Of a DNA stretch of 64,000 nucleotides, positions 8,225 through 29,774 are shown piece after piece. Source of the DNA: Hydractinia symbiolongicarpus (lineage: Eukaryota > Cnidaria > Hydrozoa > Anthoathecata > Hydractiniidae). Location of the stretch: the NCBI RefSeq assembly GCF_029227915.1, contig NC_079887.1, positions 20,087,650 to 20,151,649 of the forward strand, read 5' to 3'. A program made the position numbers and the translations under genes. Each line of letters opens with the position of its first letter. The stretch's first letter is position 1. The notes below the pieces were generated by a model that saw only the letters and a list, made by a program, of their open reading frames with translations, searched no databases and had not been told where the DNA came from.

Positions 8225-8814
8225 ATGGCTAAAATCATATCGCACGGTAACAAAAAGCATCCAACAGTTTATCAATTCGAGGAAAACGGTGAACAATACA
8301 TGCTTGGTAGCGAAGTAGGCAGTTACTTGGGTTATTATAAAGGACGTCTTTACAAAAAATTTCCATCGTTATGGAGAAAAGTTTTGGATTATAATGAGAG
8401 AAGAACGTTGAGCAATCTGAATGTTAAAAATCGTATTTTATCAAATATGGGAACAATGGTAGTGCGTGCATCAGAAGCATTGGAGATTCTAAATGGATGT
8501 GGAGATTTATATCGTGACAAGAACACCGAAGTAGCAGAACAAAATAACAAAAATAAGGCTGCTATTAATGCAGCGTTTTGTCGAGCAGCACCGAGTTCGT
8601 TAGGGGAAAAATTGCGTCAAAATCTGACACAGTTACCGAAGCAAAGAAAATCAGCAAAATTTCATATTCCAAAAATCAGAACAAAAATTGTACCGGTCCA
8701 TGTTGACTTTGAATCACCTGAGTCAACTGTTATGAACAGTCCTGTACGCTCATTCTCACCGCGGATAGGGACAACATGGACAGAATCAAGCAACGATGAG
8801 AGAACTTCCCACAG
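8225..8814 (+). CDS. SMARCB1-like N-terminal winged-helix exon (alternative first exon or partial paralogue)
   Basis: The ATG at 8225 (context aaaaATGG) opens 196 codons ending at a splice donor CAG|GTAAAT at 8814/8815; without splicing the frame stops at 8818. Residues about 15-60 align with the SMARCB1 winged-helix domain. They contain GEQYMLGSEVGSYLGYYKG and LYKKFPSLWRKVLDYNERR, against [18 protein letters not shown] and [19 protein letters not shown] in the regular exon at 19477, and a VVRASEALEILNG stretch parallels [12 protein letters not shown]. The winged helix is the DNA- or nucleosome-proximal N-terminal domain of SNF5 proteins. The exon ends in phase 2, exactly like the regular SMARCB1 exon 1, so splicing to the exon at 20378 would keep the frame. 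No SNF5 repeat-domain exons lie between 8815 and 19476, so it is either an alternative first exon of SMARCB1 or a truncated duplicate. The family assignment is secure; the mode of use is inferred. Confidence 0.8.
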
Positions 8815-9521
8815 GTAAATAGAACTATTAAACTTTGGTAAAACATTAAGTCACACTGGGAAATTTTTGACAGAAAGAATTTTGGAGGGTGGGAATGTGG
8901 GAAGGGGGCTTATTGAAAGAGGTGGTGTGATACATTGAATACTTCCAAGTCTACCGTTCAAAAATATTTTTATTGCTACAAAACAATAACGTGTTGGCAT
9001 TGTTTAATATATTAAAAGGAAAATTTGACAGAAAAATTAACCAAATCAGAAACTTTCCTTTCAAACAACGTATGAACGTTTTCAAATGCGACATTTGGCT
9101 GGACAAAATGGTCTTTAACATCAAGGATTAAAGTGTTGTTGCTTACATAAGAACAGTATGTAACTTCTGAAGTTGGACAAAAATTAAGAGAGTAATCAAA
9201 GGAAAAGAAACAAAAAATCAAAAGGTTACAAGGTTTTTCAAAGTAATAAAAAGATATGGTAAAGTAAAATTGTTTTTTTGAATTGGCCTAAAAATACGAC
9301 AAAATTTTGGATATATTTCTCGCTTCAGCGCAGTTACTTTTATGATGGGATGAAAACAAAAAACCAATATCTATCAGATATCAACTTTGTGTGACTTATA
9401 CATTAATTGCTTTTTGGTCCACAAAACTTAATATTTTGAACAGCATGCATTCCCAGTTTAACTAAAATCCAGTGTAACACTTTTTGTAGGTGTAAGTCAT
9501 TCACGTCAAATTATGAAAGTA
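8815..9521. other. Non-coding stretch after the SMARCB1-like exon
   Basis: No SNF5-domain exon or other coding region could be found here. If the donor at 8815 is used, this is intron. Sequence is AT-rich and unremarkable. Confidence 0.4.
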
Positions 9522-10150
9522 CGGGCGACGCTCGTTATCTCGACCTTCCACGGGACTGGTGAAAAAGGTCGAGATAACGAAAGTTCGAGATACTGGATAG
9601 TTGAGATAAGGAACGTCGATCGTGAAAAAGATCGAGATAAGGAAAGTTTGTCAATATCATGCTCACATTAGAAAAATTATTTAAATTTTTAAACCTGGTC
9701 AGGGATGGACTATTATTTAGAAGAATCAATTATTATTATTCTCATGCTATATGTATTAATTCATTTAAAAAAAATTCAAATTGCTACTTTGCTTTTTAGC
9801 AGATATTCTGTCGTTATTTACAAAGGATTCTACACGCTGTAATAAAGAGCGCATGTCGTTGCCGTTAAAAAGGGATAAAGTTCTTATTGTTTCTATGGCA
9901 GCATCAGCCTCGATTTTCAATTACTTTTCAATTAAAAAAAAAATACAGAAAAGGTCGAGATAACGTGATGAAATGTATTCAAGGGACCGTAAAAATAGGT
10001 CGAGATAAGGAATGTTCGTGATAACGAGTAGTCGAGATATTGGAAGTGTTTTAGCCTACGGGAGGTTGAAATGCCGAAGGGACCGAAAAAAATTGGTCGA
10101 GATACGGAAAAATCGAGATAACGGATAGTCGAGATAACGAGCGACGACTG
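9522..10150. mobile_element. pogo/Tigger-like MITE flanked by TA
   Basis: The left end CGGGCGACGCTCGTTATCTC and the right end (reverse complement CAGTCGTCGCTCGTTATCTC) are inverted repeats, and each is bounded by a TA dinucleotide (9520-9521 and 10151-10152). This fits the TA duplication of Tc1/mariner/pogo elements, whose pogo branch often begins CAGT. The interior holds many copies of GGTCGAGATAA(C/G)G near both ends, in both orientations. No transposase is present, so the element is non-autonomous. Confidence 0.8.
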
Positions 10151-10853
10151 TATTATCAAAGCAGACAGTCAAAAAATGGGCACTTAACAAGACGGACAAC
10201 TTTTTGCATTAAAAAAAATTTCTCACTATAAACGCTCCCTATTAAGCGAACATAACGGTACACGACGAAAAAATATTCAATCATACTTTTTATTTTTTTT
10301 TATTTCAGACAATTTCACAACCTTTTTTTACGTTTTCAAAATTTTTTTTTAGCTTTTATAGCACCAATAAAACAGTCGTCGATAAAAGAATACTTTGTAA
10401 ATCTTTCGTAGTCTATTTTTTTGTTAGAAATAATGCTTTACGCCCATGTACATAATCTTTTAATTACAATCCTCGCAAAGTAAAGCTTGAAAAACTTTTT
10501 TTGGTCAATATTCTACCTAAAGCTATATCTTTATAAACTAAAACTATAAACCAAATTTCTATAAAGCAGACATCTCTAAAAGCGTCTACACTAATGGTAT
10601 TCGCTTTAGAAAGATTCCACTGTAGTGCTTTTTTTTACTACCTGTCCGCAATTTTTGTTACGTTTTCTAAATTTACACGAAAAACCGACGCCAAATTTTC
10701 GCGAGTTAAAGCAAAATGTGTTCTGATATTGAGAAAGTTAACTCATTTTCTATCATTTTTAAATTTCCATTGCTCCAATTGTTCTCGATTTTAGCTTACC
10801 CTAAGCTATTTATCGCGTCATCGCACATCTCCAGTCATAAGTCCCTAACATTT
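10151..10853. other. No recognised gene
   Basis: AT-rich sequence with long T and A runs. Frames at 10594-10940 have no recognisable domain. Confidence 0.4.
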
Positions 10854-10983
10854 CAACCTCGATCCCAGGACAAGTTGTCTCTTTTTGAATATCGGACGGC
10901 GAGACGAACATGGAACCTTTTTCGTCAGACCTATCAATAAGCGCAGCGCCGATGAGAGACAAAAAGCCCTGGGAACGAGGTTG
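10854..10983. mobile_element. Small MITE, CAACCTCG family, with 10-bp target duplication
   Basis: The ends CAACCTCGATCCCAGGAC and (reverse complement) CAACCTCGTTCCCAGGGC are inverted repeats 130 bases apart. They are flanked by a perfect 10-bp direct repeat CCTAACATTT (10844-10853 and 10984-10993). A 9-10 bp duplication fits a Mutator-like mode of insertion. Related copies lie at 33585, 40056 and 40773. Confidence 0.85.
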
Positions 10984-11180
10984 CCTAACATTTATCATTT
11001 CGATATCTATTATATCTAAGAAATAAATTAATTTTTTTAAAATGTTGATTACAAATGACAGAATAAAAACATGTATATGTTTGGAAAAATGATAGTTTGG
11101 CCTGTTGAACTACCGCAATCTTGCCCAATCTTGCTACCGTGAGGTAAATGAAGATGTAGGTGCTATGCGAGTCAAAGATC

Positions 11181-11426
11181 TCAGGGACGGTAATAAATCG
11201 GCGCGCCATTAAGTTCTTGGTTTCGGAAATACTCAGCAGGGTAATTCGGATTTGAAAATCGGTTTCTATAACAAAGACCAAATGGACTAGGCTTTGTTCC
11301 GTCTCTTTCATTCCTCCAAATTTTAACTAATCTTTCCAAGTTACGTCTATTCCAATTATCCATTTTTTTCGATTCCATTGGAATTAAACTCTTTTGATAA
11401 ATCTCAAAAGCTCTTTCCAAACACAT
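11181..11426 (-). CDS. Unrecognised 81-aa ORF, possibly an exon
   Basis: The frame runs from 11426 to 11181 on the minus strand. Its composition is protein-like, with clustered W, N, R, P and Y residues, for example KMDNWNRRNLERLVKIWRNE and RFSNPNYPAEYFRNQEL. I do not recognise the family. It could be an exon of an unidentified gene or a transposon fragment. No clear partner exon was found. Confidence 0.3.
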   Translation of the reverse strand: MCLERAFEIYQKSLIPMESKKMDNWNRRNLERLVKIWRNERDGTKPSPFGLCYRNRFSNPNYPAEYFRNQELNGAPIYYRP

Positions 11427-11639
11427 GAAGAGATACAGTGGCTAGCTTAAAATTGTATGCTTTTTAAGATTTGGAGGATTTCCTTGTGTTTGTCAGTTTA
11501 AAGAACAGATTAATAGATGAATTTTTTGTTTACATTTTCAGTTATAAGCTCTTTCAGCTCCTATATTTATGCGACAGGAAAAAAGAATTTACGACACCAC
11601 ACTAGGTAAAGCAAAGTTATTTTCAGTCTATTTCATCAT

Positions 11640-11827
11640 AAAGGCATTCTTGAAGCTTTAACTGAATTCAAATAAATCAAAGCCATCAACCTACACTGTA
11701 ATAATAGTTTAAAAAACCTCAAACAATGTTTCGTGACAAGACATTTACAGGTTTTTCCTACCACACAAATGCCAGAGCCAAAGGGCTTACTGCTGAAAAG
11801 CAAACAAATAACGTCATGCTGGAATTC
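11640..11827. repeat. Dispersed repeat shared with 42600-42830
   Basis: The core AATAATAGTTTAAA followed by ACCTCAAA and ATGTTTC, then GCCAGAGCCAAAGGG, GCTTACTGC and GAAAA, recurs near 42660-42800 in diverged form with GTTTACTGCGGAAAA. In both places it sits beside a SINE of the same family, which suggests a larger composite repeat. Confidence 0.5.
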
Positions 11828-12100
11828 ATCTATAGATGTGCATATTTTACCTGTTTTATTTCCAGGAGAGGTCATGGCTTAGGTGAGGAGTGCTATAGTA
11901 TTAAATGCTCATTTTGAGCTACACAGACCCAATTAGGATCTGCCTACGCTCTACAAGACAACTCCCTGCAACATGCAACAGCCCACACAGTGTGTCATCT
12001 CTCCAATTTCCCTCACATAGCTTGGGTTAATCCAGGGCTATGGTAACAATCACTTGCCATATTGAATCACTGCCTTCCATACAAAGTGTGAGAGTTATAA
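11828..12100 (-). repeat. tRNA-derived SINE, minus orientation
   Basis: The tail (ATCTATAGATG, ATATTTTAC, TATTTCCAGGAGAGG) comes first on the plus strand. The body follows with TAAATGCTCATTTTGAGCTA, GACAACTCCCTGCAACATG, CACACAGTGTG and TTTCCCTCACATAGCTTGGG. The tRNA head at 12060-12100 is degenerate. Confidence 0.8.
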
Positions 12101-12799
12101 AAGTTTGGAAACTGAATAAACAGAGTGACAACGAGGGGAAACGATAAACAAACTAAGGAATCAAGTAAAAATGATAGGGAAACTTAGAAACGACTGGGAA
12201 CCAGCAAAAACTCAGACACTGACTCTGAAAGTAGGGGTAAAACATCTCACAATTTGTGTTACAATTGCATCAAATTCATAACATTCACAGCTTTTTCCCA
12301 CCTCTTTATCTCTGGTTCTTGACCTTTATGGTCAGTTTGTTCGACAGATATAGAAAAATTTTAGACCTGATACCTCATGGGGGAGTGATTTTCCCACAAC
12401 TTCATTCAGATTTTGATCAAAAATACTTTTCATTCATTTGTTTACATATTGGTTGCAGTACAGCTACCATTTTTCTGATCTAAAGTACAGCTGTATCAAA
12501 TACCACAATACGTAATAACATGTTTTCACTATTAGTATTAAGTTATCAAACTAGATAAAAAAGACAGGTAATAAAATTTATCTGTATATATTTACATTAT
12601 AAGCTTTAATGCAGTGTTAATAAATAAACTTTTTAATTTTTCTCATTTGAACCATGGTTCTTAATTTTTAAAAGATGTCTCAGAATTTCACATAGGCCAG
12701 AACGAGGGACTAGGAATGATCTGTGCATCACACTGTCTGGTTGTTCCTATTTAGTGCATGTTTTTGTCAACAAATCTTTATCTGCTGGTTATGTACATA
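12101..12799. other. No recognised gene
   Basis: Non-coding AT-rich sequence. The frame at 12256-12483 shows no family. Confidence 0.4.
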
Positions 12800-13065
12800 A
12801 ATGCTGAAAGACTAAAAGGGTCTCACCTATTTTTAAAACTGACAATAAAACAGATCCTTTATCGGCCTATCTCCATTCTGACAATGGCTATAACAGTCTG
12901 GATTTCGGAAATTCTTTTCCACAGAAACTCCAGTAGTTGATGTCTCTGATTTTTTTCTCACTGAACTCGACCAACAAAACTTTGTTTGTGCTGTACTCAA
13001 TGACCTTAAAAAAGCTTTTGACACTGTTGATCATAAATTTTGTTAAAACAACTATATGGTGATTT
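12800..13065 (+). pseudogene. LINE reverse-transcriptase remnant
   Basis: About 12840-12900 encodes a YRPISIL-like motif, typical of LINE reverse transcriptases. About 12970-13040 encodes CAVLNDLKKAFDTVDHK, the palm motif A (FDTVDH) of jockey/RTE/CR1-type LINEs, in another frame. The remaining enzyme is absent, so this is an old, truncated and frameshifted copy. Confidence 0.7.
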
Positions 13066-13233
13066 GGCATCAGAGATGAACTGATGCTGCCCAAGGTTCA
13101 ACACAAAAAAATGATCTCCAGAATTATGTTTTAGAGAGAGCTTGTAATAGGAACACTGCTAAGCAATAAAAATATAAAAAAAAATCACTGTGTAAAAAAA
13201 AAAATTAAATTGCGTAGGTAAATTAAGGTATGT

Positions 13234-13521
13234 ATGCTTGTGATCGCATATGCAGTTATATTAATGTACACGTTTTATCCTGTAGGTACTATTTTCTTTA
13301 TTAAGAAGCCTGCTTACAGCAGCATTCAAAATTCACATGTAAGAGTGCCGGCAAAAAATAATAATGTTCTTAAATCCATGGATAAAATGTCTGTTCTGCC
13401 TTTAAGTGTAGTCCTGCAGACTTGTTTTATCTATGCTCTGTTGGCGTTCACCTCTGCATTAGTTGAGGATGACTGGTTGGATTTCGTTTGTAAGACGTGG
13501 TTACCAATAACGAAGGGGTGA
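13234..13521 (+). CDS. Unrecognised 95-aa ORF with two hydrophobic segments
   Basis: The frame has a hydrophobic stretch at residues 1-25 (AYAVILMYTFYPVGTIFF) and another at about 52-75 (VLPLSVVLQTCFIYALLAF) followed by EDDW. The spacing of a K/M-rich loop, the second membrane segment and a following W resembles the TM5-TM6 region of Frizzled-type receptors, but the resemblance is weak and no key signature is present. It may be a membrane-protein exon or chance. The TGA at 13519 ends it. Confidence 0.25.
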   Translation: MLVIAYAVILMYTFYPVGTIFFIKKPAYSSIQNSHVRVPAKNNNVLKSMDKMSVLPLSVVLQTCFIYALLAFTSALVEDDWLDFVCKTWLPITKG

Positions 13522-14372
13522 TGCAATTGAGATTCATGTCTACGTAGTTCTTAAACTAAGTCAGGAGTCAGTAAATTAGCTAGGATGGTCAGGTTGGCTG
13601 TGAACAGACTGACTCGTGGATCAAGGCTATTTAATTCTGTCATGTAAGAAAATGGAGCTACAGACATGTCCGATTTAACTGGAAATGTGGTGAACGCTTA
13701 TATTTATGTGTGATTTACAAATATAAAGTTTATTTTTTCTTAAATTACACTTATAAGTTAATAATGCCTATTCAAAGATTTAAAAATTAACCTCCGACAC
13801 AAGTTAAACCATCCGCCATATTGTTTCATAAATTTCTTCAGTCTTGAGTGCCCTGACGTCACCTATTAAAAGATCTTAAATCATCTTCCGTATTGGAATT
13901 TTTTACTCAAACTTTACTAGTGAAATTCATTGGTAATAAGTATGTTTACCCCCATGAAAATATCAGGAACCTTTGAAAATGATTATTAACTTCGGTTGAG
14001 AAATCATCATTCAATTGCAAGACCAAGAAGTTGTGACGCATAAAAAAAATTGAGCAATTTGAGCCTATCAAGCGATATACCAGACCAATTACTGACTCCA
14101 GTTGGGAGAGCTGTGATAAAGATACTAATCAAGAAGAAGTCGCTTGACGTGTTGATGTTGCTGTGAGCATGTGGTGCAAGTGTGGAAAATGTAAGGAAAT
14201 GCCAAGCGAAGCAGAGTGTCTGCTGTTGCAAGTTAGAATCCGCAAATATTTTTAATTTGATCGGTGAGTTTTGATATGCAATTCATATGCACATGTCAGT
14301 ATTGCGATTCCGCTAGTATTAATAATAAGTCTAAAATTATATCAATAAAAAAATGTTTGTGGTGGATCATAA
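13522..14372. other. No recognised gene
   Basis: AT-rich non-coding sequence leading up to the P-type transposon. A minus frame at 14007-14231 has no recognisable domain. Confidence 0.4.
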
Positions 14373-14379
14373 TTTACGC

Positions 14380-14420
14380 CATAGTCACAGGAAAAAGAAT
14401 AGTCTGGATACAAGAGCCGT
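14380..14420 (+). repeat. Left terminal inverted repeat of P-type element
   Basis: A 41-base repeat starting CATAGTCACAGGAAAAAGAA and ending GGATACAAGAGCCGT. It matches the right end at 40 of 41 positions. The flanking direct repeat is TTTACGC at 14373-14379. Confidence 0.95.
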
Positions 14421-14520
14421 TCCGATTTGAAGGTTGTGTTCCATGATAATTTAAGGGGCCTGTGTAATTTCAGTGCAAAACAAACCACAGAGCTGGCGAG
14501 AACTGTATTGGATTATTGCG

Positions 14521-14752
14521 ATGCCTGGAGCAAACTGTTCTATTTATGGATGTACAACATCCAGATACACCCCTAACACTGCTATATTTGGACTCCCAAG
14601 AGGTGATGATAGTTACAATTTCCAATGGAAGTCAAATCTTGTACATATTATAACAAAAGATCGAGTTATTGATGCTTCCTTGAGACAGCAAATTGAGAAG
14701 AAGAGCCTCCATGTTTGTGAGCTACATTTTGAACAGAACAAAGTCAGAAAGC
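14521..14752 (+). CDS. THAP-domain first exon of the P-type transposase
   Basis: The start ATG at 14521 gives the canonical MPGANCSIYGC opening of THAP proteins. The zinc ligands C6, C11, C and H of VCELH and the conserved FGLP motif are all present. This domain recognises the subterminal DNA of the transposon. The exon itself is undamaged. Confidence 0.88.
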
Positions 14753-16233
14753 GTGAGTTACTTGCAGCCAACCCTTTCTTCATCTACAGTATATAATGTA
14801 ATAGGCAGGCATATGGAAAAGGCACATTTGTAGTATATACTTTTTAACTACTTTATTTTAGACATGAAGATAACTACATTAGTACCTGGATCACTACCAA
14901 CATTAAATCTACCTAAAAAAAGCATTCAATCTTCAATTTAAATAGCTGTTAAAAAGTATTTATTAAAGTATTTATGATAACACAGCTCCTTCAAGTGTAT
15001 GGAAAAATTCATGATTTTTTTTAAAGCTGACCTCCAATCAAATGTAGCCAGCTAACTTTATAGCTATAGGTTTCAATTTTTTAGCACAACTACTAAACAC
15101 AGACCATCTGCACAAGTCATTGAAAAAAAGAAGAATGTTGATCCTCCTCCAAAAAAAGCACTTGTATCATATTACAAATCCTATGAGAATTTTGTTCATC
15201 GTGTGGAAAATCTGAAGCTTCCTGAAGAATGGAACATTGAAAAAAATAGTTACTATATGGTGGCTAAATTTAAAGACAAAGTTCACATCATTCCAAAGTA
15301 TGAAATTTATGTTGACAAAACATTGGTTTTTAATGTACGAGTTTATGCATAGAGTTTACCTTTGGAACACACATTATATAACAAATTCTCTCAATCAGTT
15401 AAAAATGTAACATTATCACAACTTATAACACACCTCTCACAATATAAAATATGTTCAGGAACACAAGGACACTCATGCAATGATATTCAGGAAAATCTCG
15501 TATGGGATAAACATACGAGAGAGTTATGTGGACCTTGGTGATGTCGACATCAATTATGCAACCTTAAAAAATGTTGAGGAAATTGCAACTCACATTTTGG
15601 TTTTTATGATTCGCAGTTTAGTAAACCCATTCAAGTTCACATTGGCCAACTTTTCTCCTCATCACAAATATTCCCCCTGTTCTGGAAAGCAGTTGGAATT
15701 TGTGAGCTTCAGTGTCGATTAAAAGTTTTAGCAACAACTTGTGATGGTGCCGCACCAAACCGTAAGTTTTTCGGCATGCATTCAGTATTTTCTGATGAAG
15801 TCAACGACACAGATGTGGTGTACAAAACCAAGAATTTATTTTGCAGTGATAGATACATCTCTTTCTTCTCAGATGCTCCTCATTTAGTAAAAACAGCTCA
15901 TAATTGTTTGAGCAATTCTGGATCAGAAAATCAAACAAGATATATGTGGAACAATGGTCTTTACATTCTCTGGAGACACATTTGTGAATGTGGTTTGCAT
16001 CTCCTTTCTAAACTTACATACGATCATGTGAAATTATCTTCTTACTCTGTTATGAATGTCAAGCTTGCAGCACAAGTTTTAAGTTCAACTGTTAGCAAAG
16101 TTCTTCAAAACTTTGGTCCTGCAGAATCAGCTGGCACAGCTACATTTTGTTTAATGATGGATAATTTTTTTGACATTATGAACATACGTAACACAACTGA
16201 AGGAGCACATAAAGCAAAGCCATTTTTAGGCAG

Positions 16234-17429
16234 CGTTTACATGGAGCCCGTAGTGAGTTCAAACCGGTTTGAGATTTCACTACGGCTGCGATTTTCAATA
16301 CAGTTGACGGTCAAGTTTCTAACCCGTACTCAAAGTCAAACTGGTTTGAAATTAACTACGGAGTGAGAAATAGGTTTGAGATTTAAAACCGGTTTGAAAA
16401 GCTCATGTAAACAGGACCGCGGACCGGTTTGGCTGTATCGATGTATCTACGCATGCGTCAATTATATTATACGCATGCACGAAGTTAATAAATCTTGTTG
16501 CCGCATGCTGGCTGTCTTTCTTTTCGAAATGGACAACAACAACGCAAGTGCTTCGTGTTTTTCGTCATTTTTAAATTCAAACAACTTCAAGAAAAGAAGA
16601 TTAGGCCTCAGGTGAGCCTTACTGATTAGTTATCATATTTTTGATTTGTTGTACAAGTGGAGCAAGTTACCTGTTCGTATTTTTCATCTTGTTTTTAGCA
16701 AAAAAATCAGTTTCCTCAGCAACGATGTCAGAGGATCAAGAGAGTGATGTTTCAAATTTTTACAGCCATTCAGAAAATCAGTTAGAAACAATCAATATCA
16801 GAGATATTCATGACGATTTTCCGGATGAGCCACCACCACCACAACCACAGCACAGAAAAAATATTGCTGGACAAAAAAGGAAACAAACAGACGTTTCCAC
16901 CAGAAGATGGACATGGAGTAAAGAAATGGTCGAATCTCTTTTATTCAACCTAAATGAGTATAAGAGTTCAAAAACATTTGAGGGGCTTGACTTTGAGGAT
17001 GATTTCATTAAAATGTATGGAGATTTAAGGTCCATGATGAGTAGAATGTACCCGGTCTCTGATTTTGGCCCCGAATCAATTCCAGCAAAAGAAGAGACCG
17101 AAACAAATATGGAATACAAAGAATGATAAAAAGATAAATCAAAAAAAAGAAGGGTACGCCCACATAAAAAACAAAATTAGAGAACTGAGATGTTGGTACA
17201 AACATGCTGTAGATAAAGGTACTCGCTCTGTTTCGGGAAGACTTGTTGCTGAACATTACAACATTTTGAAGGAGATTTGGGGTGGTTGTCCTTCAGTGAA
17301 AGCTATACCACAAGGTAAAGTTTCACTGAATATTGAAAAAGACAACATCGTTTCGGATGATGAGGAGTCGGAAGCACCTGTGATACCAGAGAAAGGACGT
17401 GAAGCACCAGAGAAAGGTCCCGTTTACAT
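16234..17429. mobile_element. Transposon nested in the P-type transposase, carrying a SANT-like gene fragment
   Basis: A 9-bp direct repeat CGTTTACAT lies at 16234-16242 and 17421-17429 and brackets sequence that splits the transposase reading frame. The left 190 bases hold repeated AAACCGGTTTGA and TTTCACTACGG words in both orientations and an inverted copy of the outer word (CATGTAAAC near 16407). Next come a promoter-like GC-rich stretch and a Myb/SANT-like coding region. The right end shows no matching terminal inverted repeat, so the insert may be an incomplete copy. The superfamily is unclear; 9-bp duplications occur in Mutator- and Merlin-type elements. Confidence 0.65.
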
Positions 17430-17437
17430 CTGCCAAT
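16529..17437 (+). pseudogene. Myb/SANT-like DNA-binding protein of the nested element, frameshifted
   Basis: A short first exon (16529-16611, donor CAG|GTGAGC) encodes MDNNNASASCFSSFLNS. The next frame (about 16699-17126) encodes an acidic, proline-rich leader, then RRWTWSKEMVESLLFNLNEY and the rest of a trihelix/SANT-like domain. After a one-base frameshift near 17120 the domain continues with KKEGYAHIKNKIRELRCWY and VAEHYNILKEIWGG, then an acidic tail. Proteins of this layout are commonly the DNA-binding partner encoded by Harbinger-like and related transposons. The frameshift and the frame mismatch between exons suggest inactivity. Confidence 0.7.
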
Positions 17438-17980
17438 GATTATCGATTAACATGGCTAATGACTGAATTTCTACCATATTTCCAACATTGGTTGCAATGC
17501 ATTGAAAGTAGAGAAGGAAATTTTACACAAACTGCAAAAAAGAACATGTTTATCTCCTGGCAGACCCATGAAGGTATAAAGATCACTGTCAACTCTGTAG
17601 TCGAATTGATAAAGTACCTTCTATCACATGGTGTACCATATGTTTTAACAGAAAAATTGTGTCAGGATCCATTAGAAAATTATTTCCACCATCAAAGATC
17701 AGCAAAGATAATCCATCTGTTCGGGATTTTGCCTATAATGATAATAGTATCAGAAATCAAAAATTATTCAGGCCAATTCAGTCTGGAAACTCTGTGGAAA
17801 ATGTGGCTTTGATGAAGATCAGTGAAGAAGCAGTTCCATGCCGAAAGAAAAAGTATATTATTTAAAATTTATACTTACGTATACTTACCATATTTTTTAC
17901 AACAAGACACGTTGTAGCTCAAAATATGTTTTTTGTTTAATGTGTAGCTATAAAAATAGCTGTTTGATTTATAATATGAC

Positions 17981-19202
17981 TCAGTGACCTTGATCTTTAT
18001 TCGATGATTTTTTTTTTAGTTCTGTTCTTAGCGATTTGACCTTCAACTGAGCAACACGTATTTTGTGACTCTGCAGCTTATCTGTTCCATGTGAAAATGA
18101 CCTTGTTCGTATAATTTCAATAATAATGTATAATTTCAACAGATCTTCCAACAAATTCAGAGCTATCTCTTTTTTCACATCAATAGTGCACAAGCTTCTG
18201 ATTTTTGAAAGCTTCAACTGAACGGTGTTATCATGGAGAAGTTTTTCAACTATTTCTTTACCATCAATTTTGTTTGGAGAGGATTTCACATGTAACCGAA
18301 AAGTTGCTTGAGCGGTATTAAAAAGCTGAAAAACATCTGTTGTAACCTTCCATAGTCCACAACGATTTCGTGTAGCTACTAGTTTATGTTCTGGTAAATC
18401 AGAGCCACAATATTTACCAGCTAGAAGTAGGGATAAACACTGTTGATGATAAATGCTTTAATTTTCAGTTGCAATCCTTACACGTCGATGCATTGTTCCA
18501 AATACATAGCCACTCAAATAACAAATGATTGCTTTTTCTTTCTCTGTAAATGTATTGTGTGTAGAACAGGATGGTACTATGTCATTTTTAAAGGTGGATC
18601 GATTTAAGTGGGCTAGTACATAATTTGCTGTTTCAAAACTAACCAGTTGACATGAGTTTTTACTAAGTCCCTGAAAAAAATTATCTGCATCAATAACACA
18701 CTTATAGAATGAAGGGTAAAACTTTCAGCATCACCATTATATGAGACTATTGGTCCTTTTATGAAACTGTAAGTGTAAAGAACTTTGTCAAGGTTACCAA
18801 TTTCATAATTTTGAAGATCCTTAATTACTTCTTCTGGGTAGCATTTGTCTTCCAAAAGTTTGTTGACACTTTTTTCTATCATCTGTTTGAAATACAATGG
18901 ATGTAAAATATCTTCAGCAACCTTACCAACTTTAGATCGTATGTTAACGTCACCAGCAGCATCTTTTGGCTTAGCATGTTTTGTATTAGTGTGGCGGGTG
19001 AGACCTCTTTTCGACAAGCAAACTTTCTGGCATATTTCACAAGTAAAAGTAGCAGCAGAGTCAACAAAAGATGCATGCGATTTTTCAAAAGTATCCCTAG
19101 AGTCAAACTTCTGTTGTCCTTCTAAAGTATATCATTATCGATTACTGCGAAAATTGCATCCAAGTCTTCCCCACTGAAAAAGTCTTCCTGTCGCTCAGCC
19201 AT
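17981..19202 (-). pseudogene. C2H2 zinc-finger gene of the P-type element, convergent with the transposase
   Basis: The ATG is at 19202. The N-terminal piece is acidic (MAERQEDFFSGEDLDAIFAV). After a one-base frameshift near 19125 it continues with a classical C2H2 finger, CEICQKVCLSKRGLTRH with the second H four residues on. An alpha-helical region follows (MIEKSVNKLLEDKCYPEEV), then a piece in another frame with SGYVFGTMHRRVR, then GLWKVTTDVFQLFNTAQATF. The C-terminus is basic (SLRTELKKKSSNKDQGH). Similar proteins occur as multi-copy families in cnidarian and sponge genomes. Its role is unknown. Its place inside the same inverted repeats suggests it is a second gene of the transposon, perhaps an end-binding or regulatory factor. 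At least two frameshifts and one stop break it. Confidence 0.75.
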
Positions 19203-19232
19203 CTTCACCGCAAATGTTTGCATTTAAATTAT

Positions 19233-19273
19233 ACGGCCCTTGTATCCAGACTATTCTTTTTCCTGTGACTATG
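19233..19273 (-). repeat. Right terminal inverted repeat of P-type element
   Basis: A 41-base inverted copy of 14380-14420 with one mismatch, followed by the direct repeat TTTACGC at 19274-19280. It ends 203 bases before the SMARCB1 start codon. Confidence 0.95.
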
Positions 19274-19476
19274 TTTACGCGCAATAATTAAATGTCAAAA
19301 ACTTTAACATGAATATATTATGAATGAAAAAAATTGTTAAGCAAATGCAACATAAGTAATTTAATATGTGTCACTTGGATTACCTTCAAGACAAAGTGTT
19401 GACTGTTTGCCACATGATTTTATTTACTGTATATTTGAAACTTCACATTATAGTACATATAAATACCTGTGTTAAG

Positions 19477-19937
19477 ATGCCCTTGCAAACGTACGGAGAG
19501 AAGCCAAAGTCTTTTCTGTTAAGTGATAACAGTGACGAATTGTACATGATTGGCAGCGAAGCAGGTAGTTATCTACGAATGATGCGTGGTTCCATTTACA
19601 AACGGTACCCATATTTATGGAAACGCATGGCTACGTCAGAGGAACGAAAGAAAATGACAAAATATGCAATCCATCAACTACCCGCTCATGTTATGATTGT
19701 GAAGGCACAAGAAATTGAGGATTTAATTGATGGTAAAGATGCAAAATTTAAAAGTGAAAATGCTCTAAGTAAAGAATCCCCACAGTCTTCAGGAAGTAAA
19801 ACTCGTCAAAGAGGAAAGCAAGATGTGTGGCAGCCAAGTATACCAAATAGTTCTCATCACTTGGATGCTGTACCAGCTGGCACTCCTATAAGTCGTCATC
19901 GTGTTGGGTCAAAACGTGTTAAAACATTTCCAACATG
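19477..19937 (+). CDS. SMARCB1: SMARCB1 exon 1 (winged helix and linker)
   Basis: The start at 19477 gives [20 protein letters not shown], matching the vertebrate N-terminus. The frame is open upstream to 19366, but those residues are not conserved. The exon ends in phase 2 at ATG|GTATAT. Confidence 0.93.
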
Positions 19938-22900
19938 GTATATAAACCATATATTTATTTGCATGGTATTTAGAAGAAGAAAAAATAAAGCTGCCTCTAA
20001 TGGAAGAACTTTCAGACACTAAAAGATTTTCCTCCATATTTATAGTTGTGTGTTTCTTTTGTAAAAAATTTCTCAAACTGTTTTTGAAGATCCTTGATAC
20101 TCCTTATTGATTATCCTAACTATATTATTCTTAAGCAACACCAACGATTAGACTTTTAAAGAATTGTAAAATAATCGAAAAGTTTCCTCCTTCTTCAACT
20201 AAACTCAGCTAAATCAACAAACCTAAGTAGTTGCATGTAAAAGTGACGCTTGATTTAAAATAGTAGCATAGGGATGTGGAAACACAACATTTTTAGAAAG
20301 TTACTTTTCTTGAATTGCAGCAGTTTTTAGACTCAATATTATACTTTTTTACATAAAATCATTAACTTTGTTTGTAGTTACGATGATCATGACATGGCCG
20401 CAATACATGAAGCTGCAAAAGAACCAGAAGAATTAATCCCAATAAGGCTTGATATCGAGATAGATGGTCAAAAACTTCGTGATACTTTTACTTGGAACAA
20501 GAACGGTATCTATCCTAAAGATATTATTACATGTATTTTTATTTTAGAAGTAAAAATTATGAGAGTATTTTGTGGTAGAATGTTCATTTCTTTAACTATT
20601 CTCGTGTTTATTTGTCATCAAAATTAGAACGCAACACTCCCTGTAATTTTTATCCAGTCCCAAGGGTTTATTTGATTTGATTTATTTTAGAGAAACTTAT
20701 AAGCCCCGAATCATTTGCAGAAGTTCTTTGCGACGACCTAGATCTCCCAACACTGACTTTCGTACCAGCTATTGTACAAGCCATGCTGCAGCAAATCAAA
20801 CAAAACAGTATAGAGTCGGAAATATCTTTATCAGAGATGACCGATCAGAGAATAATTATCAAGGTAAGTCGGTATAAAATTCTGTATAATACTTCAGTGT
20901 ATCTGTCGATGGGAAAACACAAGGAACAGAAAAGTAAGATGTTGTTAGCTGTAACCGACAAAAATTTCAGGAAGAAAAATATGAAAAGTTAAAAAGAAAC
21001 ACTTCACGATATAGGGCCTGGGAGAAGTGACATTTGGTGGAGTAATAGAACTGACACAACAATAACTAAATATTCAAAAATATTCGATTTGTGAGATCTC
21101 TACTCCATGGCAAATTATTTTTTTATGTTTTAATATTTTTTCTTATTTATTTCATTTGCCGATTAAAGAGTATCTAAGATGGAGTCCTGTAAACTGAGTT
21201 ATTCTATAAAGTTTTTGCACAAATGTGTAACGAAACGAGTGAAAAGTGTTTCCATTAGAATATTGCAGCGTTTTAATTTTCACAACTTTAAATCGTCATG
21301 ATGGAAACGTAGTCTATATCCATTTTTTTTATAATGCGATCGAGTGTTCGTATTGAAATGAAATTTGATACACTATACAAGGAAATGATGATGGACTCAA
21401 TGCTGGCATAATATGAACAAGAACGTTGAAGTATAATTTATTTATCAACAATTTTTTTTATTTTATTTTTTTTCAACACATTATAGCTGCAGTAAAAAAC
21501 TAAAATTAATGTCAACAAATTCCTTCCCAGTGCTCTTTACTCCACTTAAAATATTTTTCACACGCACACAATTGTTGTCCAATGCCAATCGTGCACGTAA
21601 TTTTTTGTGACCTGCTTTGTTGTGTTTTTGGTAAAGGAATATGAATGAATTTGCACTTAGATTTTTTGCAATGTTTCTTTTCAACAAATAACAATTGTTC
21701 ATATGTAGTCTGACAACCAGTCTCTCTTCGAGCTTGGGGCGTGTTCTGGCAGGGTATTAATTATTTTCCCATATGATTGTTGCAAAAATAAATAGGCTTA
21801 AGAACCTTGGCTATAGCTCGTATATGCTATTATGGTAAAGTAATTATAATTTATTGATGCATGAATGAAATTTTACAAGATGAAAAGATTAATTAAGGGT
21901 TCTTAGAGGCTGTTTATATAGAGGCGAGCTGGCTCGGCAAATAGGCTGGCTCACTTGCGGGCTGGCTTTTAACTTGTGTTTATATGAAGAAAAAAACTAC
22001 TTCGGGTAGAGCGGGCTGGCTCTGAACAATGAAAACATTAAATAATGTAGAACAAAAGAAATTCCTTTCATAACAAAAGATTTTATTAGTTGAGCATAAT
22101 AAACCATATCACCTAGTTAATCCCGCCTACACGGATTCCGCCTCTGAGAAACGAGAGCCAGCCCATTTGACCATAAAACAGATGAGCAAAAATATGAGGA
22201 GAATGAGGAACAAGCGAGTTCTCGGTAAACTGGCCAGCCCGTCAACCGGGCTCATATAAACTGAACCTTAGTATGTTTAGAAAAACTACCAATATACAGC
22301 AATTTGAAAATGTTGTATTTCTTATCAGCCTTAAGAGAGTCAGTGTCAACTTTATGTCTATTGTTGACGTAAGGTAAGATCTCTTTGTCAACAATGTGTG
22401 ATGGATAGGAGTTTCTACCTAAAAGTTTTTTAACATCAAGAAAATTTGTGTAAAATGTCAACCAATCACTACTGATTTCAAACGTCCTGTGAATCAATGT
22501 TTTAACTAACCAGAGCTTGTAGCTACGATGTGAAGTGAAATTGGTGTAAAGTCCAGTAAAAGTCCCGGTATAGAGATCTTACTAGAACAGTAAAGTATAA
22601 AGTGTAGCGCGAAGGGAGATTTTAACCAAACAGAAAAAACCTCTGCTGAATTTAACATTTTCGACCTGACGTTGCTAAATATCCAGCCTTAAAGAGTAGC
22701 CAGATAGGAGGTATGGAAATTGAAAAAAAAGAAAGAATAAAAGTCGTTCTAATAAAAGTACTAAGCTAAAGTTTTTACCTCAAAATTTATGTTTTTATTA
22801 TTTTTATTTGTTCAAAAGTTGCCACCATTATTAGTCTTTTTAACAAAAACAAGAAACCGCGGTCGGTTTGAAATCACACATAACGAAAAAACATTTCAGT

Positions 22901-25900: not shown

Positions 25901-28900
25901 CATTGTGTTTTAATTGTTCAATTTTCTATTTCGGAAGGTTTCTCGTGGAATGCAAAGTTAATAAATTACATTTTTTTTATTTAAAGTCTACTTCCGCGAA
26001 AATTAATTCCCGCCAAAATGCGAAATACGAACAGTTCGTGAAAATTAATACTCGCGAAAAATCAAAATTTCTTAAATTCGCGAAAATTAATACCCGCGAA
26101 GTACACCTTTTTTGACTCGCGAAAGTAAATACCAGTGAAAATTAGTACTCCTAAGGTACGGTTCCTAAATACATAGCGAAATACACATTATAATAAAAAT
26201 TGATGCGATAAAAAGAAAAACTAAAATTTCCCTGCATAAATTCTCTAAATTTTGGCTAGCTATAAGAAACTCTAAAATCAGAAAGAAATATTGCGTATTG
26301 TAACATAAAAACACTTTAAAACATGCGTCCTTTCAAATCATCCTAACATTGTTGAGTTTAAAAAATATATTTTCACTTCACTTCATTTTTGCTTGAATAA
26401 TTTCAGCAACAGCTTCCTTCTTCATCTTAACTAAGGGCCAAGCTTCAATAAAAACAGCTAAAGATAAAAGTCTTCTTCCTTAACTTAATATCAGGAAAGG
26501 AAAACAGCATCAGGTTTCCGTTTACGTGAGAACCAGCAATAACAATGACTCGAATCCAGTGTGATAAAACTTTCCTGAAAACCGCCGCCGCCGCAACGAA
26601 AGGGTGAACTAACATATCACACTAGCTACTCTGTATGTGTGATTTATAAAATATTTTTTCACTTATTAAATAATGTCAAAGGATTGGTTAAAGAAAATGA
26701 GTCAGCTCTTCTTGCGCTATAGCGATAAAAGCATTGAATGAAAACCAGAAGAAGAAGAAATTGTTTGCGGACTTTAAGTTTGCGGAATTATAAGTTGCAT
26801 AAGCATACATATAAGCATACATTTGGATTAAAATTATGGAATTAATAATTGTGATAAACAAAAAAATAACCTATTTAAGGTTACTCTATAACCATAAATG
26901 ATAATTTTTTGCTTATATTCTCTTTTTAAAGTGAGTTTTCTGCTGAATGCACGGAAAAATTGCAAACGAGTCGGGTCGAAAGTAGGGTCAAATGCGAAAT
27001 AAAAGGTTCAAAATGTACGTTGTCGTTTAAAGGAGAACTGTGATAAAAAAATTCTTACATATTACGAAAATAACATGGCATAAAAGTTTTTAAATTGGTT
27101 TGTACATATTTTGTTAATTTGTGACGTCACACGACGTACATAGCTCAGCAGGACTTGTGAGAATGCGCTCAGTTCTTAAGGCGATTTTCCACTAGGTGGT
27201 CTAAAACGCGCTAAGCGTAGGCGGCTATTGTTTAAAACAATATAATAACAATATATAAATCGGCTTCGAATGTCATTTTTTGATTTTCACTTGTCAAAAA
27301 CATGTAAACATAAACGTTCGACGTAGAAAATTAAGAAAAAAATCTTCTCAAACTATTGTTGTTGCTGAATAAAGAAAAAGAAAACAAAACAAACAAGTAT
27401 GCCAAAAGGTTTTGGTTAAGACAACTGTATCAAGAACGAAAACTAGCAGGAGAATTCATTCTTCTCGTTCAAGATATGAAATTGTATGACAGTCAACTTT
27501 TTTTTAAGTATTTTTGTATGTCACCTACTAAACTTGAAACTCTTTTATCTTGGGTTGCTCCTTTAATTACAAAAAGTGAAACAAAGATGAGAGAGCCGAT
27601 AAGTGCAAATTGGAAATGATAGTTTTGATGGCTCTCGCAAAATGTTGTTTATATCACGTGGCCCTGCAGCATTTTAATTGGATAGCGCTTTGAAAAGCAC
27701 GTAAAAGTGAAAGTGGAGTCGACTTTTGAAACCGCGCTGAGGGAACCACTGTTATCGGGTTTGGGACTGAAAGAACAATAGCCGTCACGCTCAGCGTGTT
27801 CTGGAACGCGTAGTGGAAATTCGGCTTTAGTCCTCCAAGGGAGATTATAATTTATCGCGAGGTTTGAGCGAAGAAGCAGACAAGTTAAACTCCAGTAAAA
27901 CGACGTCGTGGTAGAAAAAATAATTTTCAACAATTTAACAACATGCAAAAGTAGGTAAACAAAGAAAAACTTTGAGACTGTTTTTGTTTTGTTTTTTCAA
28001 TGAAGAGATGTTTTGATACAAAAATAACACAAGACAAATTTCATAATAAAGTTGAATACACGTAATACTTATTAGTGATAACTCATGTTTAAAACAATAT
28101 TTTTAACGGAGAAACAATATGTAATTCTAATAAAGATATTTATTTCAAAATATGATAAATAAAATTACTTTTGACAATCACAGGAGGCACAGTGTAGCAT
28201 TCCCTCGCTTCGTTCATTCAGAATAAGTTTGTTTTACATCCCGACTTACGTCACACAAGTTAGTATTTTACCGAACAGAAAGTCCTTATTGACACTGTCA
28301 TGGTGGCGACCGTAGGACTACTCTGACCTTAAATATCTCGAGAACCAAAGCTCACAAATGTAAAACAATTAACACAGTTCATATTCACATTATAATGAAC
28401 ATTTAAAGCACAACTTGTTATCAATCGTGTACTCTTTAACGGTGTAATGATGAATACGATAACTTATTTCTTCAGCTTAATTTGCACGTTGGAAATGTAT
28501 CACTGCAAGATCAATTTGAATGGGACATGTCAGAACCTTTAAACGATCCGGAGCAGTTTGCTTTATCTCTTTGTACCGAACTCGGCTTGGGAGGTGAATT
28601 CGTTACTGCCATCGCATATAGTATACGTGGCCAACTAAACTGGAATAGAAAAACGTATGCTTTTAGCGAAAAACAGTTACCCACTCTGGACATGGCCTTA
28701 CGTACTGGAATGGATATCGACAAGTGGTGTCCATACCTCGAAACTTTAACAGATGCTGAAATGGAGAAAAAACTTAGAGATCAAGATCGTAATACGAGGT
28801 AGGGTAATTTTCTACTCTATTTGCAAGACTACATGGAAAAAGGGAGAAGTATTAGCTTGAATCGCTGGTAAACTTAAAAATTTACATGCTCTTGGGTTTA

Positions 28901-29774
28901 GTAGTTATAGTATTATCTGATACTGATTTTTTTATAAAAAATAAATACTTAACGCATTAATTTTGTGTCTATTCATTTTTGCGAAGCTGAGAATATTTAA
29001 TATTAATTTTTTCTTCACTTAAATTATTCTCCGTTAAATAAAGAAAAACCAAATGTAACACAAACAAGACGTATGATATACGCAAACAACCTCGCGGATA
29101 AAGTTCACAAAAAGCTGTCTATCTAAACGTGATTTTTGTTACGAAGTTAGACACGACATATTTTGCTATTCAGATAGGAAAATTTCTCGAAAATTCGATT
29201 TTCGATGGGTCCGTCTTGGGTAAACTGACTAACAGGAAAAAGAAAGACTCCAAACCCCACCTAAAAGTTGCTAAATTCAGTAATCCAGCATCTTATCTTT
29301 TAAAAAAAAAAAAAAAATAGTTACCAAGATGAGATTCGAACACATGACGACTCCCGTGTCGGTGCTCAGAGAGGCAAAAATTTCCATTCTTGCAGGACAC
29401 ATTTGCGTTTTAATACAAGCTCACGAGCTTGTAATAACATAGAGTTACATAAAGAAAAAAATTTGCCAAATTCTAGCAGTTGAGTACCAGTGGAAATTAG
29501 TACTTTTCAGTAGGTATCGACTTTTGCACAACTCCAAATCAGACCCTATTCATTCTGCTCATATTTGTATTTTCAAAGTTTTATAGGCTTTTTGAGGAAA
29601 CTTTCCTACAAATGTAAAATAAAGATTTGTGTAAGTCGGCCATTGTGTTTTTGAAATCATTTTTCTCCGATAAAGACTATTTTAATTTTTCAACAGACGC
29701 ACGATCATTAAAATAATACTTCATACTTTTTTATTTTTAGGAGGATGCGTCGACTTGCAAATACGTATATCTAG
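19477..29774 (+). CDS. SMARCB1: SMARCB1 (SNF5/INI1/BAF47), core SWI/SNF subunit, five exons
   Basis: The exons are 19477-19937, 20378-20505, 20691-20863, 28476-28798 and 29741-29774. They join in frame into 372 codons, against 376-385 aa in vertebrates. The protein is a core subunit of BAF/PBAF chromatin remodellers in the nucleus; its repeat domains bind SMARCC subunits and its C-terminal helix contacts the nucleosome acidic patch. In order I see the N-terminal winged helix ([20 protein letters not shown]), the conserved [20 protein letters not shown] linker and SNF5 repeat 1 ([36 protein letters not shown]). Repeat 2 follows ([41 protein letters not shown]). Last is the arginine-rich C-terminal helix ([19 protein letters not shown], then RRLANTYI). 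All splice junctions are GT-AG. Intron 3 is 7.6 kb and full of transposons. A P-type transposon ends 203 bases before the start codon, leaving little room for a promoter. Confidence 0.97.
20378..20505 (+). CDS. SMARCB1: SMARCB1 exon 2 (start of SNF5 repeat 1)
   Basis: The acceptor TTTGTAG precedes TTACGATGATC. The split codon completes C, giving [20 protein letters not shown]. The donor is AACG|GTATCT in phase 1. Confidence 0.95.
20691..20863 (+). CDS. SMARCB1: SMARCB1 exon 3 (rest of SNF5 repeat 1)
   Basis: The acceptor TTATTTTAG leads into [20 protein letters not shown]. The donor AAG|GTAAGT is perfect. The exon ends in phase 0 after IIIK. Confidence 0.95.
21906..22267. mobile_element. MITE with TTA flanks, GGCTGG-rich ends
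   Basis: The ends GAGGCTGTTTATATAGAGGC and (reverse complement) GGTTCAGTTTATATGAGCCC are imperfect inverted repeats flanked by TTA on both sides (21903-21905, 22268-22270), as for Harbinger-type insertions. Several GGCTGGCTC and GAGCCAGCC words lie near both ends. There is no coding capacity. Confidence 0.65.
24032..24330 (+). repeat. tRNA-derived SINE, plus orientation
   Basis: A partial tRNA-like head keeps a B box (GGGATTCGATTCCC). The body (GGCTTGGGTTAACCCAAGCC, ATGTGAGGGAAATTGG, GTACACTGTGTGGGC, GGAGTTGTCTGGTAGAGCGC, CTCAAAATGAGCATTAAA) follows, then the tail GAAATAATAGACAGGGTATA with GAGGCTAACC. The head-body junction contains the local palindrome CACATGGCTTGGGTTAACCC. Confidence 0.85.
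25374..25479 (+). repeat. Dispersed repeat with internal CTAT microsatellite, copy 1
   Basis: The stretch TTAGCCTGG ... GCGTCCAGCCTAGCTGCGCT then GTCTCTATCTATCTATCTATC, GGCGATTTTAAAGATTCCGC and the small hairpin CCGCCTTCGCTGGCGG recurs nearly identically at 46290-46395. Confidence 0.8.
25509..26156. mobile_element. TA-flanked MITE with many TTCGCG/ATTAATACCCGCG repeats
   Basis: The left end CCTTAGGAGTACTAATTTTC and the right end (GAAAATTAGTACTCCTAAGG) are perfect inverted repeats, flanked by TA (25507-25508, 26157-26158), as for Tc1/mariner-type elements. About 15 degenerate copies of GCGAAAATTAATACCCGCGA line both sides in inverted arrangement around an unrelated centre (about 25700-25970). 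There is no transposase. A fragment resembling one end (AGTACCAGTGGAAATTAGTA) lies at about 29482. Confidence 0.85.
27179..27826. mobile_element. Harbinger (PIF) derivative with TTA duplication
   Basis: The left end AGGCGATTTTCCACTA and the right end (reverse complement AGCCGAATTTCCACTA) are inverted repeats. TTA flanks both (27176-27178, 27827-27829), the signature 3-bp duplication of Harbinger. A second inverted block, GCTAAGCGT ... GGCTATTGTT, lies about 25 bases inside each end. The interior keeps an N-terminal transposase fragment at 27356-27619, and the rest of the enzyme is deleted. Confidence 0.85.
27356..27619 (+). pseudogene. Truncated Harbinger transposase N-terminus
   Basis: The frame encodes [20 protein letters not shown], then [20 protein letters not shown], matching the N-terminal helical region of Harbinger transposases (HARBI1-like, normally about 350-400 aa). 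The catalytic DDE nuclease part is missing. The opening codon of the open stretch is TTG-like rather than a clear ATG, so it is a remnant. Confidence 0.75.
28476..28798 (+). CDS. SMARCB1: SMARCB1 exon 4 (SNF5 repeat 2)
   Basis: The acceptor TTCTTCAG precedes CTTAATTTGCACG. The exon encodes [20 protein letters not shown] to RDQDRNTR and ends in phase 2 at ACGAG|GTAGGG. Confidence 0.96.
28799..29740 (+). other. SMARCB1 intron 4
   Basis: The intron is bounded by GTAGGG and TTTTTAG. It contains an A15 run at 29304-29318, a tRNA-like half (29321-29393) and a fragment of the 25509-type element end near 29482. No other feature is visible. Confidence 0.85.
29321..29393 (-). repeat. tRNA-like remnant with Pol III-type T run
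   Basis: On the minus strand a B-box-like GTTCGAATCTC follows a plausible anticodon arm (GACACGGGAGTC), and a run of about 15 T residues follows the 3' end as in Pol III terminators. The 5' half does not form a clear D arm, so this is a tRNA-derived SINE head or a tRNA pseudogene, not a functional tRNA. Confidence 0.4.
29741..29774 (+). CDS. SMARCB1: SMARCB1 exon 5 (C-terminus)
   Basis: The acceptor TTATTTTTAG leads into [11 protein letters not shown] and the stop TAG at 29772-29774. Vertebrates end in RRLANTAPAW; this terminus is shorter and diverged after NT. Confidence 0.92.

Follow-up and report, generated by a model that had tools for sequence, protein, structure and literature searches.

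The stretch analyzed here, called the window, comprises 64,000 nucleotides of the Hydractinia symbiolongicarpus genome (NC_079887.1, positions 20,087,650 to 20,151,649) and contains the gene for SMARCB1, a core BAF subunit and tumour suppressor. The gene lies on the forward strand and has five coding exons between 19477 and 29774, which together encode a 372-residue product that matched the NCBI protein P0111 letter for letter. Exon 1 (19477..19937) encodes the canonical winged helix (WHD1) and a linker, exon 2 (20378..20505) carries the YDDHD motif and the start of the SNF5 domain, exon 3 (20691..20863) continues this domain, exon 4 (28476..28798) holds its second half, and exon 5 (29741..29774) contains the protein end and the stop codon. 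On the same strand, 11 kb upstream of the gene, positions 8225..8814 encode another winged helix, termed WHD2. We consider this element likely, at a probability of roughly four in five, to be an alternative first coding exon of SMARCB1 that is spliced from 8814 to 20378 and supplies a predicted second winged helix.

The WHD2 frame and its junction with SMARCB1

The WHD2 frame runs without interruption from 8225 to 8818 and encodes 197 residues followed by a TAA at 8816–8818. It consists of an INI1-type winged helix, an extension, and a VMN motif. The ATG at 8225 is directly preceded in frame by TAA AAA, and translation must begin there because of this stop one codon upstream. The closing TAA is overlapped by a predicted splice donor (CAG|GTAAAT, with GTAAAT at 8815..8820). 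With a donor at 8814|8815, the exon would be 590 bases long, or 196 codons plus 2 (phase 2), which is the phase of canonical exon 1 (153 codons plus 2). A phase-2 donor that starts with GTAA is itself read as TAA, so the end of the exon is also the end of the open reading frame (ORF; ...SHR*). Scored with a rough donor matrix from recall, the site reached 8.7, the highest value among the 37 GTs in 8225–8900 and the 28th of 3372 on the forward strand of the window. Among SMARCB1's own donors, that of exon 3 scored 11.8 with the same matrix, and those of exon 1 (at 19938, ATG|GTATAT) and exon 2 (at 20506, GTATCT) were weak, at 2.9 and 3.9, respectively.

WHD2 belongs to the Pfam family INI1_DNA-bd (PF21459; 76.4 bits against a cutoff of 27, E = 1.9e-21), and its top match among solved structures was the human SMARCB1 domain 5aj1 (E = 6e-15, 58.8 bits). 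It was identical to the window's own SMARCB1 exon 1 at 33 of 125 positions and kept 49 of the 53 columns at which eight relatives all agree. By these comparisons, the frame is far from a product of chance. The original prediction of an intact 196-codon exon for a diverged SMARCB1 N-terminal winged helix, ending at CAG|GTAAAT in phase 2 like SMARCB1 exon 1, was thus borne out by the open frame, the family match, and the phase.

An AlphaFold2 model of WHD2 had block means of the predicted local distance difference test score (pLDDT) of 84–94 over residues 1–110, with helices at 102–118 and 125–134. Foldseek ranked 5aj1 (INI1 domain) first for this model (E = 3.0e-6), with a template modelling (TM) score of 0.64 by target length and 0.38 by query length and a root-mean-square deviation of 8.8.

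Searches of the window with WHD2 and SMARCB1 exons 1–4 (tblastn) found one WHD2 copy and no SNF5 exon from 8.8 to 19.4 kb, in agreement with the claim that none lies between WHD2 and the gene. The claimed acceptor was confirmed at 20377|20378 (...TTTGTAG|TTACGATG), where the joined frame reads SHS-YDDHD across a predicted intron of 11,563 bases. The sequence of the window alone would look the same for such a spliced exon and for a single-exon gene of 197 residues, and the relatives of WHD2 bear on this question.

WHD2-type proteins in hydrozoans and anthozoans

A first search with WHD2 yielded nine proteins. P0001 led with 96% identity and the same length, and the others were 48–55% identical over 72–87% of the query. 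These relatives had in common the winged helix and a following block (NMGTMVV-A-EA ... A-N-AFCR), and six of the nine carried V[MI]N close to their C terminus, present in the window as STVMNS. Overall, 209 database proteins were collected, including the best 120 of 709 matches to the predicted joined protein and 108 proteins from a profile search with 6660 candidates. When the same exon was sought in other cnidarians, as had been proposed, WHD2-type domains were found in protein records of both hydrozoan and anthozoan relatives. Clytia is a hydrozoan, and Actinostola, Desmophyllum, and Porites are anthozoans. The named sources on the WHD2 side were Actinostola and Desmophyllum (P0033, P0126), and both Anthozoa and Hydrozoa are covered because Clytia enters through the identical SNF5 parts of P0110 and P0113. 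A WHD2 protein and a canonical SMARCB1 with consecutive gene numbers (P0032, gene14296; P0116, gene14295) presumably come from one genome.

A WHD2-type N terminus was followed by the SNF5 start motif in 12 of the 209 proteins. The evidence on joining in relatives consists of these protein records, whose SNF5 parts were compared with the 124 rows bearing the SNF5 start motif, the window's canonical protein included. The SNF5 part of P0110 was identical to that of canonical P0113, named Clytia hemisphaerica (205/205), and that of P0028 to canonical P0123 (202/202), both of which are listed on a contig of 19,319,694 bases. P0117 matched canonical P0125 at 201 of 202 positions, and P0126 matched P0129 at 197 of 202. 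P0109 and P0033 had no near-identical partner among the collected proteins, with best canonical identities of 93.7% and 84.5%, respectively. Near-identity of this kind suggests that the joined and canonical proteins are isoforms of one gene in at least two cases, and probably in a third.

The residues at the junction were also compared, from residues alone rather than codons. Since a phase-2 donor starting with GTAA makes an ORF finder read NNG TAA, the frame would often end in R* or W*. Tails ending in R or W were found in 10 of 28 WHD2-only proteins (P0001, P0004, P0005, P0008, P0010, P0025, P0029, P0031, P0032, P0037), for example SLR* in P0031 and HLW* in P0008 and P0010, next to SHR* in the window; those of P0004 and P0005 are doubtful, as they end far earlier in the frame. 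P0006, P0007, and P0036 read W-Y or R-Y at the tail position; P0030 is ambiguous, and two others, P0026 and P0027, are fragments. In the joined proteins P0028, P0033, P0109, P0110, P0117, and P0126, C or S stands before YDDHD (SLS, HLC), as NN+T predicts. The six diverged joined proteins had other residues before the equivalent position.

Phylogenetic trees were built for the two parts of the protein from rows picked by hand from the collected proteins. The N-terminal tree (55 rows) separated 30 WHD2 rows from 25 canonical rows of cnidarians and bilaterians with split support of 98/94, and this split appeared in 99% of 200 bootstrap trees. The separation is partly built in, because the labels came from motifs of the same region, and the tree thus displays two kinds rather than proving them independently. 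It is unrooted and compatible with a WHD2/WHD1 split before or after the parting of cnidarians and bilaterians. In the SNF5 tree (34 rows; a 35th, P0128, lacked the start motif and was left out), the labels were mixed, with P0110, P0028, and P0117 adjoining P0113, P0123, and P0125. The labels required 8 changes on this tree, at least 7 of them forced by starred branches, compared to a mean of about 10 after shuffling; 46–53 of 500 shuffles were as low as the observed value. Separate N-terminal groups and mixed SNF5 groups are both expected of different first exons on a shared body, which therefore fit both trees. Together, the 12 joined proteins, the identical SNF5 parts, and the tree contrast support, from relatives, the original prediction that splicing joins WHD2 to SMARCB1 exon 2 and so yields a subunit with a different winged helix.

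The identity between WHD2 and WHD1 was 57% (P0028/P0123) and 46% (P0117/P0125) in anthozoan-type pairs. P0032/P0116 gave 38%, and the hydrozoan pairs reached 30% (window) and 33% (P0110/P0113). This gradient fits what would be an ancient exon 1 duplication with greater subsequent change in hydrozoans.

Other readings of the frame

Several observations weigh against a spliced exon. No joined WHD2-SNF5 record of H. symbiolongicarpus was found among the best 120 of 709 matches to the predicted joined protein, where the best full-length WHD2-type match was 61% identical (P0110) and the canonical protein of the species 64% (P0111). At NCBI, the record that equals the window's SMARCB1, P0111, has the canonical N terminus, and the matches listed included no NCBI record for WHD2 of the window. 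The closest relative, P0001, is a 197-residue ORF with the same end point; since it ends at the TAA, it derives from genomic DNA or an unspliced transcript, or else is a stand-alone protein. The gene model P0032 covers just the WHD2 part, and P0019 (nr) also stops after WHD2. The tails of P0002, P0003, P0009, P0012–P0019, and P0041 lack the phase-2 junction pattern. The AlphaFold2 model as a whole is of moderate confidence (mean pLDDT 68.2, predicted TM score 0.56), with residues 135–197 under 50. The SNF5 parts of P0011 and P0020–P0024 reached no more than 78.9% identity with the canonical proteins collected.

With regard to the misfitting tails, WHD2-only proteins such as P0003, P0019, and P0012–P0018 ended in sequences of the kind FKVK and WKLSELL. 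P0011 and P0020–P0024 were rejected as clean support for the splice because their SNF5 parts diverge and four of them were flagged as long branches. They are probably diverged separate genes, to judge from their SNF5 parts, and perhaps each is a former isoform turned separate gene. An odd stretch (NKKTRAHLEKRLATV) is common to P0022 and canonical P0130, which would fit gene conversion within one genome.

Three observations would be expected if WHD2 were a stand-alone intronless gene for a winged-helix-only protein of 197 residues that ends at the TAA at 8816 and might compete with SMARCB1 on DNA instead of forming part of it: the ORF is closed by a stop, P0001 has the same length and end, and the records of P0032 and P0019 comprise WHD2 only. 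Motifs of the type ATTAAA or AATAAA follow the ORF at 8827, 9011, 9127, and 9245, though these are common in AT-rich DNA. However, relatives carry a WHD2-type domain ahead of an SNF5 part that equals the one in SMARCB1, the stop lies within a strong donor, and the ORF tails of several relatives end as a phase-2 donor predicts. We regard a stand-alone gene as unlikely, though it is the strongest of the competing readings.

Somewhat less probable still is an ancestral alternative exon that has fallen out of use in H. symbiolongicarpus and persists as a relic before decay. The missing joined protein of this species among the matches listed, although its canonical protein is in the database, would agree with disuse, as would the lower conservation of WHD2 than of WHD1 between the window and Clytia (48/83 versus 67/84 identical positions). 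Decay has left no mark on the frame or the donor: 104 of the 1764 possible one-base changes in the frame would give a stop, and none is present. Moreover, the 8 of 197 residues that differ between the window and P0001 all fall at variable columns (8/122) and none at the columns invariant in eight other relatives (0/53), which weakly suggests constraint on WHD2 between the two sequences.

Capture of a SMARCB1 piece by a transposon is very improbable: transposase-like ORFs lie close by, but the window holds one WHD2 copy, relatives among both hydrozoans and anthozoans have WHD2 as well, and P0032 and P0116, presumably from one genome, are adjacent by gene number. With one WHD2 copy and no SNF5 exon around 8.8 kb, a retrocopy or a full second gene in the window was rejected.

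A real, conserved alternative first exon of SMARCB1 is thus the most likely explanation of WHD2 on the present comparisons. The earlier argument that an intact frame amid transposons speaks for use held as to the frame, but is weak alone, and it is the comparative evidence that carries the case. Use of WHD2 may be confined to one stage or cell type, may have escaped annotation, or may have been lost.

Predicted product and its contact with DNA

For WHD2 to be used as a first exon of SMARCB1, a separate promoter upstream of 8225 would start the transcript. The usual exon 1, itself a first exon with no acceptor in use, would be skipped, and exons 2–5 would be shared. The predicted product is a 415-residue subunit in which the second winged helix replaces the usual one. 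As both forms would have the SNF5 domain and the C-terminal end in common, the one with WHD2 would be expected to enter the same BAF-type complex, with the winged helix and linker alone changed.

The human SMARCB1 winged helix binds DNA weakly, as seen by nuclear magnetic resonance, and Ser30, Glu31, Arg37, Arg40, Lys45, and Arg52 are described as being among the residues exposed at its likely DNA site, with Arg37 and Arg40 among those that are also conserved (Allen et al. 2015, PMC4509781). WHD2 of the window keeps Ser30, Glu31, Lys45, and Arg52 in human numbering, and has Gly for Arg37 and Lys for Arg40, so the full set was not found; position 56, Thr in human, is Asp. This departure speaks to DNA contact and not to fold; membership in the Pfam family does not depend on the residues concerned.

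The same two positions largely separated the two kinds of winged helix in a comparison drawn from 211 rows (the 209 database proteins and two from the window). Thirty-nine rows were assigned to WHD2 by hand from motifs, seven of which (P0012–P0018) are near-copies; 150 were assigned as canonical by the DAVP motif, of which four without the anchor motif (P0114, P0129, P0130, P0181) were dropped; and 22 fell in neither group, the fragments P0026 and P0027 among them. At position 37, the WHD2 rows (n = 39) had G in 27, N in 6, Q in 2, and E, K, D, and S in one each, while the canonical rows (n = 146) had R in 143, K in 2, and H in 1. At position 40, K was found in 38 WHD2 rows and R in one, and all 146 canonical rows had R. 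Because of the Gly and Lys at these positions, WHD2 is predicted to engage DNA or chromatin differently from the usual winged helix. In humans, Arg37His is a recurrent disease variant (PMC12343709).

Compared to the known SMARCB1/INI1 winged helix (5aj1; PMC4509781), WHD2 thus has the same Pfam family, the same predicted fold, and four of the described site residues, but differs at the positions of Arg37 and Arg40. Hydrozoan-type WHD2 also has an extra conserved segment after the domain (KEAIN-AFCR), which is missing in anthozoan-type rows (P0028, P0117). A distant match was found to the SAY-type winged helix of PHF10/BAF45a (7y8r_R; 25.7 bits versus 58.8 for SMARCB1), whose tandem PHD fingers had no Pfam match in the WHD2 exon. 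In mammals, isoforms 1 and 2 of SMARCB1 are described as differing by 27 nucleotides in a long or short exon 2 (PMC12343709). Alternative splicing there likewise changes the N-terminal part of the protein, but a short stretch is lost, whereas here a diverged copy from another first exon would replace the winged helix and linker.

Alternative first exons are a general phenomenon in which promoter choice sets an exchangeable N-terminal domain, and WHD2 would swap the N-terminal domain of SMARCB1 in the same way. A wider proposal, which could equally hold or fail, is that since before the hydrozoan/anthozoan split cnidarians have had two BAF-type complexes by promoter choice at one SMARCB1 gene, with exchanged DNA-contact arginines (human Arg37, Arg40) in their winged helices, and that in some hydrozoans the second form has turned into its own gene with a fast-evolving SNF5 part (P0011, P0020–P0024). 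On the narrower reading of WHD2 as an alternative first exon, the animal likely makes two SMARCB1 versions predicted to touch DNA differently, and promoter choice would be a route to BAF diversity in a lineage that arose early among animals. Allen et al. (PMC4509781) leave open the role of the winged helix in the complex, and a naturally occurring exchange of this entire domain, with SMARCB1 otherwise unaltered, would be a ready-made experiment. We found no description of another SMARCB1 winged helix from cnidarians in titles and abstract starts, with few subscription journals covered, consistent with the remark in the original prediction that alternative winged helices of SMARCB1 are not known to be described. 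According to one review, Hydra SNF5 had not been characterised (PMC8141815).

The transposase-like ORFs, which do not belong to the gene, lie at 14455..16363 on the forward strand, between the two SMARCB1 first exons and within the predicted 11,563-base intron. They matched TNP-like_GBD (PF21788; E = 1.2e-14), and a THAP-like match fell just below the cutoff (23.7 versus 23.9 bits). On the reverse strand, 50318–51937 holds an open frame of 540 residues with no Pfam match at 0.001.
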